Positions 9,817 to 34,062 of a stretch of DNA of 40,932 bases are shown here, piece by piece. The DNA lies in contig CAIQPH010000312.1 of assembly GCA_903873655.1 (NCBI GenBank), forward strand, positions 1 to 40,932, read 5' to 3'. The notes beneath the pieces are model-generated. The model was not told the origin of the DNA. It searched no databases and saw only the letters and a program-made list of their open reading frames with translations. Numbering within the stretch: the first letter of the stretch is position 1; each line of letters opens with the position of its first letter. Both the position numbers and the translations under genes were made by a program. The DNA is from an uncultured Holophagaceae bacterium (GTDB taxonomy: Bacteria > Acidobacteriota > Holophagae > Holophagales > Holophagaceae).

Positions 9817-10953
9817 ATGCACCCACGCGTCCTAGCTTGGCTAGTCATGGCCCTGCCCATCGGAGCGGTGCTGGGCGCGCTCCTGGTCCTCACCCTCCGC
9901 TGGATCCGCCTGCGGCGACGCGTGCCTGGGGATCCTGAATCCCTGCTCCTCTCGGCGGTCTCGGGCAGCCTGAGGGAGCGGGGCGAACTGGCCGCTTCCC
10001 TCGGCGAACTGCGCACGGTCCACGAGCGGCTCCTGGATGCCCTTCCCACGGGTCTGCTGTGGGTGGACCAGCGGCGTCGCGTGGCGGCCCTGAATCGCAG
10101 GGGACAAGAACTCCTGGGCGTGACGCCGGGCGTCGTCGGCCTGGAGGCGGCCTTCGTGCTGGAACCCTATCCATGGTTGCGCGAGGCGCTGGAGGCCGAA
10201 CCCGGCCCAGCCCATCGGCTTGGGGCGCTGGACCGGCGATGGCGGATCCAGCGCATGGAAGCGCCCGATCGCATCGGGGCCCTGGTCCTGTTCGAGGACA
10301 TCACCGAGGGGGAACTGGAAGGTCGCCGCCGTCAGTTGCGTGAGCGGTTCGCCGAGCTGGGGGAAATGACGGCGGGCATCGCCCATCAGCTGAAGAATGG
10401 CCTGGCTGTCCTGAAAGGGCAGGGACAATTGCTGGATCGGGCCGGCCACGGTGCGGCCGCCGCGGTGCTGCTCGAGGAGACCGAGGACTTGGAGCGGCTC
10501 GTCCAGCGGTTCCTCCAGTGGGCGAAACCGCTCGAGCCGCTATCCGAACCGCTGCGGCTCGAGGACGTGGCCGCCCAGGCACTGACTGAACTGAAGCGGC
10601 GCCCCGTGAGCCAGGGCCGCAGCCTCCTGAGTGAGGGGAATGGTGCTGCCATCGGTGATCCCCTTCTGCTGCACCAGGCCCTGGTGAACCTGGTGGAGAA
10701 TGCCTGCCAGGCCACGCCCGTGGGCGGGCGTGTGCTGGTGCGGATCTCCGAGCGGCACCTGGACATTCTGGACGAAGGTCCCGGCCTTTCCGAGGACATG
10801 GCCCGACGCATGCTGCGTCCTTTCGAAAGCGGCCGTCCCGATGGCACGGGCCTGGGTCTGCCACTGGCCCTGAAATGGCTCAATGCGCAGGGCGCGGACC
10901 TGCGCTTGTCACGCAGGCCCGAGGGGGGCACCCGTGCGGAGATCATCTGGTGA
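9817..10953 (+). CDS. Sensor histidine kinase
   Basis: N-terminal TM helix, PAS-like segment, H-box ELGEMTAGIAHQLKNGLAVLKG, N-box LVNLVENACQATPVGG, G-boxes LDEGPGLSEDM and GRPDGTGLGLPLAL. Confidence 0.92.
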   Translation: MHPRVLAWLVMALPIGAVLGALLVLTLRWIRLRRRVPGDPESLLLSAVSGSLRERGELAASLGELRTVHERLLDALPTGLLWVDQRRRVAALNRRGQELLGVTPGVVGLEAAFVLEPYPWLREALEAEPGPAHRLGALDRRWRIQRMEAPDRIGALVLFEDITEGELEGRRRQLRERFAELGEMTAGIAHQLKNGLAVLKGQGQLLDRAGHGAAAAVLLEETEDLERLVQRFLQWAKPLEPLSEPLRLEDVAAQALTELKRRPVSQGRSLLSEGNGAAIGDPLLLHQALVNLVENACQATPVGGRVLVRISERHLDILDEGPGLSEDMARRMLRPFESGRPDGTGLGLPLALKWLNAQGADLRLSRRPEGGTRAEIIW

Positions 10954-10969
10954 CTGGTAGATTGGTGGA

Positions 10970-11179
10970 ATGAGCATGCAGCAGAAGCGGAATGCCACTT
11001 TGGCGACCATTCGCCGAAGGCGAATAGGACCGGCTGCGCAGCAGACGGCCCCGGATGGGCGAGCGCTACCTGCGCGAGTCAAGCCGAAGCCCGGAGGGCG
11101 CGGCACAGGGAGGCTCCACCTCGGCCAGCCAAGCGCGCAGGAGCACGCGCAGCGTGCGTTAGGTGGAGGTGCCGCGTGA
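10970..11179 (+). CDS. Possible 69-aa small ORF; expanded first member of a tandem small-ORF array
   Basis: MSMQQKRNATLA[...]KPKPGGRGTG[...]GGAA: same start and end as the two 25-aa units that follow, with two in-frame insertions; TGA overlaps the next GTG. Confidence 0.4.
   Translation: MSMQQKRNATLATIRRRRIGPAAQQTAPDGRALPARVKPKPGGRGTGRLHLGQPSAQEHAQRALGGGAA
11009..11025. repeat. Short perfect hairpin ATTCGCC-GAA-GGCGAAT
   Basis: 7-bp stem with 3-nt loop read directly from sequence. Confidence 0.8.
11114..11168. repeat. Nested inverted repeat: CTCCACCT...AGGTGGAG around GCACGC-GCA-GCGTGC
   Basis: 11114-11121 pairs with 11161-11168; 11143-11148 pairs with 11152-11157. Confidence 0.85.
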
Positions 11180-11253
11180 GCATGCAGCAGAAGCGGAATG
11201 CCACTTTGGCCAAGCCGAAGCCCGGAGGGCGCGGCACAGGAGGTGCCGCGTGA
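11176..11253 (+). CDS. Possible 25-aa peptide MSMQQKRNATLAKPKPGGRGTGGAA (unit 2)
   Basis: GTG start 11176, TGA 11251-11253 overlapping the next GTG at 11250; preceded by ggtggaggtgccgc. Confidence 0.4.
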   Translation: MSMQQKRNATLAKPKPGGRGTGGAA

Positions 11254-11323
11254 GCATGCAGCAGAAGCGGAATGCCACTTTGGCCAAGCCGAAGCCCGGA
11301 GGGCGCGGCACAGGAGGTGCCGC
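11176..11323 (+). repeat. Two perfect tandem copies of a 74-bp unit immediately before NAD+ synthase
   Basis: gtgagcatgcagcagaagcggaatgccactttggccaagccgaagcccggagggcgcggcacaggaggtgccgc at 11176-11249 and 11250-11323. Confidence 0.97.
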
Positions 11324-11327
11324 GTGA
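11250..11327 (+). CDS. Possible 25-aa peptide MSMQQKRNATLAKPKPGGRGTGGAA (unit 3)
   Basis: GTG start 11250 with AGGAGGT upstream; TGA 11325-11327 overlaps the NAD+ synthase GTG at 11324. Confidence 0.4.
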   Translation: MSMQQKRNATLAKPKPGGRGTGGAA

Positions 11328-13033
11328 AGATCGCGCTGCTCCAACTCAACGCCCGTCTCGGGGATCCCGAAGGCAACGGCCACAGGCTGGAAGTGGCCTA
11401 CGGCGAGGCCGTCCGTGCCGGGGCCCAGCTGGTCCTGGCCCCTGAGTTGGCCATTCCAGGCTACCTGCTGGAGGACCGTCTCTGGGAAGCCGGCATGCGA
11501 CGGCGCATCGAAGGGGAATCTATGCGGCTGGCGGCCCTGTCCGGGTCCGTGCCCCTGGTGTTCGGCACCGCCCGGCCCGCGCCCTCGGGGCGGCTCTGGA
11601 ACGAGCTCTGGTGGTGTGAGGGCGGTCGCCTCGGGCACTGCTCCCGGAAGCGCGTGCTGCCCAGCTACGATGTCTTTGACGAGCACCGCTACTTCGAACC
11701 CGACGCAGCGCCGCAGCCGCTGGTGCCCTTCCTCGGTCATCGCATCGGGCTGTCCATCTGCGAGGATCTCTGGGCCGACCCGCAGCTGGGAAATACGCCG
11801 GTGGGTTACGGGATGGATCCCATTGCCGATCTGGTCGCCGCCGGGGCAACGCTCATCCTCAACGCCAGTGCCAGTCCCAGTTCCCTGGGCAGCTGGCTGC
11901 CGGAGGGCCGGAGCGCCCCCTGGGCCATTCCTTCGAAAGAGGCCCAGCGTCGCCGCCTCCTGCCTGGGCTGGCCCAGAAGCATCGGATTCCGGTCGCCTA
12001 CGCCAGCCGCGTGGGCGCGGAAAGCTGGCTGCTCTTCGATGGCGGGTCCGGCCTGGCCCTGCCTGATGGCCGCTGGCAGGGAGGCGATTCCTTCCAGGAG
12101 GGACAGCTCCTGGTGGATCCGGCGGCTCCCGGCCGGTCTTGGAGTTCCGTGGAGGAGGGTCCCTGGCTGCGCCGGGCCCTGGTGACAGGCATCCGGGACA
12201 ATCTCGCCAAGCAGGGTCTGGAGGCGGTCGTTCTGGGCCTGTCCGGTGGCATCGACAGCGCAGTGGCCGCCGCCCTGGCGGTGGAAGCGCTAGGACCGGA
12301 TCGCGTTCTGGGAGTGGCGATGCCCACGCGCTACAGCAGCGCGGAAAGTTCCGATTACGCCGAGCGGCAGGCCCGGCATCTGGGCATGGGCTTCCTCGGC
12401 CTGGACGCGGACGCCCCTTTCGCGGGCTTTGCTGCCGCGCTGGAGAAGGCCTTGCCCGGCCGCACCTTCGGATTGACCGATGAGAACCTCCAGAGCCGTT
12501 GTCGCGGCAGCCTGGTCATGGCGCTCACCTCGGAGCCGGAAGTCCAGCGCCGCTTGGGAACCGACCGGGTGGCGGTGCTGAACACGGGCAACAAGAGCGA
12601 GGCCGCCACAGGCTACTTCACGCTCTACGGCGACGGCATCGGCGCCTTCTCGCCTCTGGGGGATTGTCTCAAGGCCCGCGTCTACGCCATCGCCCGGGAC
12701 CTGGGGGAGGCCGTGCCCCGCAGCGTGCTCGAGCGTCCACCCACCGCCGAGCTGAGGCCCGGGCAGACCGACGAGGCGAGCCTGCTGCCCTACGCCCAAC
12801 TGGATGCCATCCTGGGCACAGCTCTTGAAGCCCAGCGCCCCGAAGAAGGCCTGGCGGACGATCTGGCCCTGCTGCTGGAGGGCGAGGCCCTGGCTCAGGC
12901 CCGGTCCGCCCTGCCGCGCATCCTGGGCCTCCTGCGGCGCACCGAGTTCAAGCGGCGGCAGCTGCCCTTCGCCTTCAAGGTCAGCCCCAAGGCCTTCGGC
13001 GCCGGCCGCCGGATCCCCCTCACAGCGCTCTGA
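11324..13033 (+). CDS. nadE: Glutamine-dependent NAD+ synthase (N-terminal nitrilase-like domain plus synthetase domain)
   Basis: MKIALLQLNARLGDPEGN, GLSICEDLWAD, LGLSGGIDSAVAAALA, NTGNKSEAATGYFTLYGDGIGAFSPLGD. GTG start at 11324 with AGGAGGT-N5 spacing; the ORF-track start at 11198 falls inside the repeat array. Confidence 0.95.
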   Translation: MKIALLQLNARLGDPEGNGHRLEVAYGEAVRAGAQLVLAPELAIPGYLLEDRLWEAGMRRRIEGESMRLAALSGSVPLVFGTARPAPSGRLWNELWWCEGGRLGHCSRKRVLPSYDVFDEHRYFEPDAAPQPLVPFLGHRIGLSICEDLWADPQLGNTPVGYGMDPIADLVAAGATLILNASASPSSLGSWLPEGRSAPWAIPSKEAQRRRLLPGLAQKHRIPVAYASRVGAESWLLFDGGSGLALPDGRWQGGDSFQEGQLLVDPAAPGRSWSSVEEGPWLRRALVTGIRDNLAKQGLEAVVLGLSGGIDSAVAAALAVEALGPDRVLGVAMPTRYSSAESSDYAERQARHLGMGFLGLDADAPFAGFAAALEKALPGRTFGLTDENLQSRCRGSLVMALTSEPEVQRRLGTDRVAVLNTGNKSEAATGYFTLYGDGIGAFSPLGDCLKARVYAIARDLGEAVPRSVLERPPTAELRPGQTDEASLLPYAQLDAILGTALEAQRPEEGLADDLALLLEGEALAQARSALPRILGLLRRTEFKRRQLPFAFKVSPKAFGAGRRIPLTAL

Positions 13034-13103: not shown

Positions 13104-13189
13104 TGGTAGCCCTCCCCGGACTCGAACCGGGACTTCATCGCTGAAAGCAGATTTTGAGTCTGCCGCGTCTGCCATTTCGCCAGAGGGCC
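13104..13189 (-). tRNA. tRNA-Leu (anticodon CAA), CCA encoded
   Basis: Reverse complement ggccctctggcgaaatggcagacgcggcagaCTCAAAAtctgc...cccggttcgagtccggggagggctacca folds with a class II variable arm. Confidence 0.93.
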
Positions 13190-33934: not shown

Positions 33935-33978
33935 TCCGCCAGAAAAAGGCCCCCTGGCGGGGGCGTTTTTCTGGCGGA
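33935..33978 (-). terminator. Rho-independent terminator of tRNA-Ser embedded in a 20-bp inverted repeat
   Basis: tccgccagaaaaaggccccc-tggc-gggggcgtttttctggcgga: arms match at 19/20; core gccccc/gggggc followed by a T-tract on the minus strand. Confidence 0.8.
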
Positions 33979-34062
33979 GAGTGGGGGATTCGAACCCCCG
34001 AACGGCTTTTGACCGTTACACGATTTCCAGTCGTGCTCCTTCAGCCACTCGGACAACTCTCC
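33972..34062 (-). tRNA. tRNA-Ser (anticodon GGA), CCA encoded
   Basis: Reverse complement ggagagttgtccgagtggctgaaggagcacgaCTGGAAAtcgtgt...ggggggttcgaatcccccactctccgcca pattern; 7-bp acceptor stem and long variable arm. Confidence 0.93.

Follow-up and report, generated by a model that had tools for sequence, protein, structure and literature searches.

A start-codon repeat dispersed in Geothrix forms the array of coupled mini-ORFs upstream from nadE

The region located immediately upstream from the NAD+ synthase gene (nadE) of an uncultured Holophagaceae bacterium contains three mini-ORFs, each ending on a stop codon that overlaps the next start codon. The unit forming these mini-ORFs belongs to a repeat dispersed through Geothrix (Acidobacteriota). 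The array very probably results from the local expansion of this apparently mobile Holophagaceae repeat, which would insert exactly at start codons and would be built in such a way that translation survives. In all likelihood, it behaves as a passenger and not as a dedicated regulator of nadE. The DNA analysed, referred to as the window, is a stretch of 40,932 nucleotides.

The array comprises an expanded unit of 206 nt followed by two units of 74 nt, and the first mini-ORF begins 16 nt downstream from the stop codon of a histidine kinase gene (Table 1). The two 74-nt units are identical (74/74 nt) and encode the same peptide, MSMQQKRNATLAKPKPGGRGTGGAA. The ORF of unit 1 encodes 69 amino acids. 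The 3' end of unit 1 reads GTGGAGGTGCCGC and that of units 2 and 3 reads ACAGGAGGTGCCGC. The tandem match within the array was 100% across 163 nt (TRF score of 326), far beyond chance. The sequence-only reading of this region had described two perfect 74-nt units and one expanded unit, a GTGA stop/start overlap at every hand-over, including the last one at the GTG codon of nadE, and successive units in different frames. Coordinates, unit identity, and overlaps were confirmed, as was the change in frame, the starts at positions 10970, 11176, 11250, and 11324 being in frames 2, 1, 0, and 2, respectively. Comparison of positions 10900 to 11400 with Rfam 15 gave no match up to E = 1, the mini-ORF peptides had no match in Pfam, and scans for sigma-70 promoters and terminators found no pattern. 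Two tRNA genes were seen on the minus strand of the window, for tRNA-Leu (CAA) just 3' of nadE (13104-13189) and for tRNA-Ser (GGA) at 33972-34062.

Table 1. Features of the window in and around the array located upstream from nadE.
Feature	Position	Strand	Basis and remarks
Histidine kinase gene (PAS/HisKA/HATPase)	9817-10953	+	ORF, Pfam; adjoins nadE in 30/30 compared loci
Unit 1, expanded, 206 nt	10970-11175	+	Mini-ORF of 69 codons, ATG at 10970; TGA at 11177-11179 overlaps GTG of unit 2
75-nt nested module, H1 loop of unit 1, in frame	11006-11080 (edges +/-1 nt)	+	A 75-nt module also in H1 loop in L005, L007, L044, and L061
57-nt nested module, H3 loop of unit 1, in frame	11108-11164	+	Also in H3 loop of 32 other units
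Unit 2, 74 nt	11176-11249	+	25-codon mini-ORF (GTG start, 11176-11253); TGA overlaps GTG of unit 3; covariance model R2, 99.8 bits
Unit 3, 74 nt, same sequence as unit 2	11250-11323	+	Mini-ORF 11250-11327; stop overlaps nadE GTG; covariance model R2, 99.8 bits
Hairpin H0 of unit 3 (GCAU...AUGC)	11254-11275	+	Covariation, MFE
Hairpin H1 of unit 3 (CUUUGGC-CAA-GCCGAAG)	11278-11294	+	Covariation, MFE
Hairpin H2 of unit 3 (CCC-GGA-GGG)	11295-11303	+	Fold; almost invariant, covariation support slight
Hairpin H3 of unit 3 (CGCGGCAC-AGGAG-GUGCCGCG)	11304-11324	+	Covariation, fold
nadE, NAD+ synthase, 569 aa, GTG start	11324-13033	+	ORF; Pfam NAD_synthase and CN_hydrolase

The possibility that the 74-nt unit is a dispersed repeat, raised in the sequence-only reading, was borne out. 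A DNA query of 90 nt derived from units 2 and 3 produced 14 significant matches in the genome of the window itself and was positive for 42 of 47 Geothrix genomes. All 47 genomes were positive with a covariance model, which returned 1 to 33 hits per genome; nadE itself was matched in 44 of the 47. At the level of the order, the DNA search was positive for 6 of 11 genera. The covariance model detected the repeat in 35 genomes from 10 genera in a sample of 396 Acidobacteriota, nearly all of them in the same family. A genome from another family (G178) contained one strong hit (E = 5.5e-19), and this copy was likewise coupled to a start codon. Tandem arrays reached 5 units.

For 105 parsed arrays, the final RTGA opened a same-strand ORF of 60 codons or more, 37 distinct genes being concerned; the parsing pattern demanded a terminal RTGA, and loci L067, L072, L101, and L208 (gene beginning with ATGTGC) are outside this set. 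The host genes include nadE, hemC, nnr, ymdB, nuoC, and a histidine phosphatase gene, together with murF, dnaE, ddl, glmM, dnaJ, prmA, and mtnP. A census was performed in four complete genomes (G008, G015, G018, and G031) with a query lacking the ends of the element and the covariance model, the tally being made by hand from the outputs. Among the 37 loci recovered, 25 were coupled by overlap at a start codon, two formed in-frame N-terminal extensions, three were in-frame copies within coding sequences (L179, L181, and L249), and seven were elsewhere. Since start codons represent a tiny fraction of the genome, this bias is not due to chance. An SD-like word preceded the first unit in only 71 of 115 cases.

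Copies at other sites formed a minority (L151, L169, L170, and L177). L151 (1496-1960; G031:C1:357534-357921) consists of three tandem units of 155 nt containing a variant that ends with GTCAG instead of GTGAG; together with its relatives in L169, L170, L219, and L267, this variant suggests a subtype no longer tied to start codons. In L177 (G018:C2:1277604-1278381), the copy lies within a 3 x 348-nt tandem of an apparent antisense uvrA 3' end. Divergent copies of the hairpin unit were present in frame within coding sequences in L179 (1045-1118), L181 (1014-1093), L249, L254, L255, and L257. These in-gene copies use another frame of the element (EAEAGAE...), and the copy in L181 forms a linker beside the apparent C-terminal domain of a methionyl-tRNA synthetase. 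In L176 (1093 onward) and L131, the terminal stop/start junction has been lost and the copy now extends the host protein at its N-terminus, which may be a way in which new protein N-termini arise.

Orthologous sites with and without the repeat were compared. Comparison of the region upstream from nadE in relatives, an analysis proposed along with the sequence-only reading, involved 30 species; the repeat was absent from 26 and located exactly at the start codon in four. In the empty sites, the start of nadE followed the stop of the kinase gene at a distance of only 9 to 34 nt in nearly all cases, one site containing 277 nt of other sequence. For hemC, empty sites read ccaacc followed by ATGAGACACGTC, versus ccaacc followed by ATGAGAACGG...GCCGC and ATGAAGCACGTC for filled sites; the flanks of the orthologues match, and the filled sites hold ATGAGAACGG...GCCGC immediately 5' of the ATG. 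With regard to the features typical of a MITE (terminal inverted repeats and target-site duplication), RTG or RTGA was found at both ends of the element at the nadE and hemC sites, and inspection by eye revealed no clear terminal inverted repeat in the unit.

A single origin of the repeat at nadE was considered and rejected, as the four filled species require at least three changes on the nadE tree and the sister species of the window (L011) has an empty site, although a distinctive variant copy common to three species (L010, L014, and L015) blurs the distinction between gains and losses. For the latter species, a shared ancestral insertion followed by losses is possible. The copy in the window differs from this variant and may represent a separate insertion. 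Some of the shared sites look ancestral, and the mobility of the repeat may thus not be ongoing.

Conservation of the reading frame was assessed in 150 units of 50 to 332 nt from about 40 genomes. Unit length was 2 modulo 3 in 146 of the 150 units, and the first in-frame stop was a TGA exactly overlapping the next start (RTGA) in 145 of the 150 mini-ORFs. These counts support, on evolutionary grounds, the geometry of a coupled relay, with frames demanding re-initiation, that had been proposed for the nadE array. The exceptions mostly support the rule. In units of 72 and 138 nt, the internal junction is lost and reading continues to the RTGA of the gene itself; the 133-nt 'unit' is 59 + 74 nt, a 75-nt unit is fused to the gene in frame, and the 332-nt case is the non-start copy of L169. 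None of the 89 distinct 74-nt units contained an in-frame stop, whereas stops interrupted 28 units in one of the alternative frames and 7 in the other. Diversity was even across codon positions (0.18, 0.13, and 0.15). Selection at the level of the peptide was rejected owing to the lack of third-position excess. A frame devoid of stops combined with even variation across codon positions is the pattern expected from selection for the passage and hand-over of ribosomes, not for a peptide. For annotation purposes, the tiny tandem ORFs preceding genes in these genomes are repeats, not leader peptides.

The RNA fold was analysed with 28 divergent units. Four consecutive hairpins (H0 to H3) were conserved, 91.0% of the cells being paired versus 78.8% after shuffling. 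The covariation score was 0.354 versus 0.139 for shuffled alignments, none of 500 shuffles reaching the observed value, and controls with slid partners did not exceed 0.095; the relatedness of the copies inflates the shuffle tests, but the slid controls retain this relatedness and score far lower. Fifteen pairs were changed on both sides, and the nearly invariant H2 contributed little to covariation. The terminal hairpin (H3) carries AGGAG in its loop, 6 to 7 nt 5' of the start, and its outermost pair takes the first base of the start codon (C-G in 56 and T-A in 31 of 91), GTG starts being paired with C and ATG starts with T, twenty bases upstream. In H3 of unit 3, the Shine-Dalgarno sequence is accordingly within the loop, and the start codon of nadE contributes its first base to the outer pair.

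Longer units consist of the 74-nt unit and inserts of 57, 63, 66, 75, 90, or 93 nt. The length of the inserts of at least 20 nt was a multiple of three in 59 of 60 cases, and 54 of the 60 were located in a hairpin loop, with four more at the stem/loop edge of H2; many of these inserts share common ancestry and do not represent independent events. In unit 1 of the window, the 74-nt unit is extended by two modules, one of 75 nt within the H1 loop and one of 57 nt within the H3 loop. A 75-nt module was also found in the H1 loop in L005, L007, L044, and L061, and 57-nt modules occur in the H0 loop as well as in the H3 loop. The 57-, 63-, 66-, and 75-nt modules seem to be distinct families of small repeats that enter hairpin loops.

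These features can be assembled into a model for the insertion and maintenance of the repeat. The core unit (ATGAG...GCCGC) lies immediately before the RTG of the gene. The inserted ATG would take over the former ribosome-binding context of the gene; it opens a 25-codon mini-ORF, which keeps the frame and ends at the TGA overlapping the gene start (RTGA). Within its loop, the terminal hairpin supplies a new Shine-Dalgarno sequence, while also pairing with the first base of the start codon. The translating ribosome would melt the hairpins, terminate on the TGA, and re-initiate at the overlapping RTG with the aid of the loop Shine-Dalgarno sequence, the output of nadE being roughly preserved. 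Such a hand-over would render insertion tolerable even before essential genes. Every insertion would leave a fresh RTGA, enabling units to stack. At nadE, one copy would have been inserted and now bears the 75- and 57-nt loop modules, the 74-nt copies having been added later by tandem duplication. The average identity of 74-nt copies was 95% within arrays versus 84% between arrays, as would be expected if some arrays, that of the window among them, had grown by tandem duplication. The recent duplication of a start site envisaged in the sequence-only reading is upheld for units 2 and 3. Other arrays hold dissimilar units that look like a second insertion, as for hemC in L061.

Four other explanations were weighed against the start-codon repeat. 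The window belongs to a 328-contig assembly, and tandem units might arise there as an assembly artefact or as a chance low-complexity tandem. The same units, including a 5 x 74-nt tandem, were present in the complete single-contig genome G008, and copies were also found in G. rubra Red803 and G. limicola Red804. These observations rule out an assembly artefact and leave this type of explanation with a negligible probability. The sequence-only reading had offered, beside a start-site duplication, a leader-peptide relay acting on nadE translation or as a sensor. The corresponding rival explanation is a cis-regulatory leader dedicated to nadE, whose copy number would tune NAD+ synthesis. The precise coupling and the conserved hairpins argue for such a device, as does the mycobacterial fpg1 gene, in which upstream repeats of variable length correlate with expression at the mRNA level (PMC2734929). 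The presence of the unit at no fewer than 37 unrelated genes, its absence from most nadE loci compared, the lack of coding-type constraint on the peptide, and the negative Rfam, promoter, and terminator searches largely refute a nadE-specific device, which is very improbable. Occurrence at many loci without coupling and absence from relatives had been named in advance as evidence against the relay; the many loci and the absence at nadE were observed, but coupling is mostly present. The relay geometry is meaningful, but what the window contains is one local array of a start-codon repeat spread through the genus, rather than a sensor for nadE.

The hairpins might alternatively provide a shared RNA control, for example a protein- or temperature-responsive Shine-Dalgarno hairpin, recruited at many genes to form a genus-wide translational regulon. 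The location of the Shine-Dalgarno sequence in a conserved loop, the pairing and covariation of the first base of the start codon, the maintenance of the frame, and the housekeeping function of many host genes are compatible with this explanation. A regulon is nevertheless unlikely in view of the large variation in the number of hits per genome, the absence of a common pathway among host genes, the lack of the repeat in most nadE and hemC orthologues, and the existence of copies in frame within genes and at non-start sites. A regulon specific to NAD was rejected, since the hosts comprise nadE, nnr, and nuoC but also hemC, murF, ddl, glmM, dnaE, and dnaJ. A further explanation, which departs from the preferred one only in the cause of the site bias, is that a palindromic repeat was scattered everywhere by a Y1 (REP/IS200-type) or retro-element enzyme and that copies located at start codons alone survived selection. 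The chain of hairpins, the hairpins nested in loops, and the in-frame gene copies recall REP sequences and Rickettsia palindromic elements. The search for an enzyme that could mobilise the repeat yielded none. The Y1/RAYT transposase (PF01797) was detected in 7 of 47 genomes and reverse transcriptase (PF00078) in 15 of 47; both were absent from G008, G015, and G018, three complete genomes rich in the element, and neither followed copy number. Neutral intergenic sites should also have been hit, whereas 27 of the 37 loci of the complete genomes were at start codons. This scenario is accordingly a minority possibility, although selection alone is still tenable as the origin of the site bias.

The start-codon repeat resembles several known systems. 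Rickettsia palindromic elements (RPE) are small hairpin-forming repeats that enter coding sequences in frame, as do some Geothrix copies (L179, L181, L254, L255, and L257), but most Geothrix copies precede start codons and have their own start, stop, and Shine-Dalgarno sequence. The REP/IS200-type palindromes mobilised by RAYT are dispersed intergenic hairpins that encode no transposase. The Geothrix repeat also consists of dispersed hairpins in intergenic DNA and encodes no transposase; it differs in being fixed in orientation and site to start codons, in holding an ORF, and in lacking association with RAYT. Termination and re-initiation at an overlapping stop/start is the feature shared with translationally coupled short upstream ORFs, although in Geothrix the upstream ORF is a dispersed repeat found at dozens of genes. 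The repeat also offers natural bicistronic leaders, with dozens of evolved variants of a re-initiation hairpin with the Shine-Dalgarno sequence in the loop, before genes such as nadE, murF, ddl, hemC, and dnaE.

The closest known system is the mycobacterial MIRU, to which the Geothrix element can be likened by its layout, in another phylum. Published work describes MIRUs as short dispersed repeats (about 40-100 bp), often in tandem, inserted at start codons (PMC12548453, PMC4128351, PMC4213456, PMC2734929), with a small ORF coupled to the gene in the same orientation by a -4 overlap (ATGA/GTGA; DTGA) (PMC12548453). According to these publications, the entire 77-nt 5' UTR of an M. bovis gene is a class I MIRU, the M. 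marinum gene being leaderless there (PMC4128351), the senX3-regX3 interval holds MIRUs of 77 and 53 bp (PMC4213456), and M. tuberculosis H37Rv has MIRU repeats of 40-100 bp at 41 locations (PMC2734929). The Geothrix repeat has a comparable size and organization (74-nt core, 1 to 33 hits per genome, tandem arrays of up to 5 units), a comparable coupling of mini-ORFs to the next RTGA and of arrays to a same-strand ORF, and a comparable location at start codons that lack it in orthologues (nadE and hemC). It differs by its occurrence in Acidobacteriota and in frame within coding sequences. The four-hairpin fold, the Shine-Dalgarno sequence in a loop, the paired base of the start codon, and the loop modules seen in Geothrix do not figure in the MIRU descriptions consulted.

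MIRUs serve worldwide as markers for the typing of tuberculosis strains, and we know of no explanation for how repeats of this type settle at start codons. The repeat described by Supply in 1997 as MIRU reportedly had no dyad symmetry, in contrast to the four covarying hairpins of Geothrix. Because of this conflict, the Geothrix repeat was kept apart from the MIRU class and compared by layout, not by sequence. A literature search retrieved no earlier description of the Geothrix repeat and no MIRU counterpart outside mycobacteria, the term 'MIRU-like' leading only to a Trichodesmium species name. With Geothrix, target choice, mobility, and effect on translation become testable in a second system, this time in environmental bacteria: strains have been named (Red803 and Red804), copies are numerous, orthologous sites occur both empty and filled, and the fold is conserved. 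There is an even chance that the element is unrelated to MIRUs and that life at start codons evolved independently in the form of a self-translating hairpin chain, which would capture the host start, return the ribosome via a hairpin with a Shine-Dalgarno loop, and take hairpin elements into its loops in frame. If so, 'start-codon hitchhiking' would be a recurrent class of bacterial repeat and not a mycobacterial curiosity.
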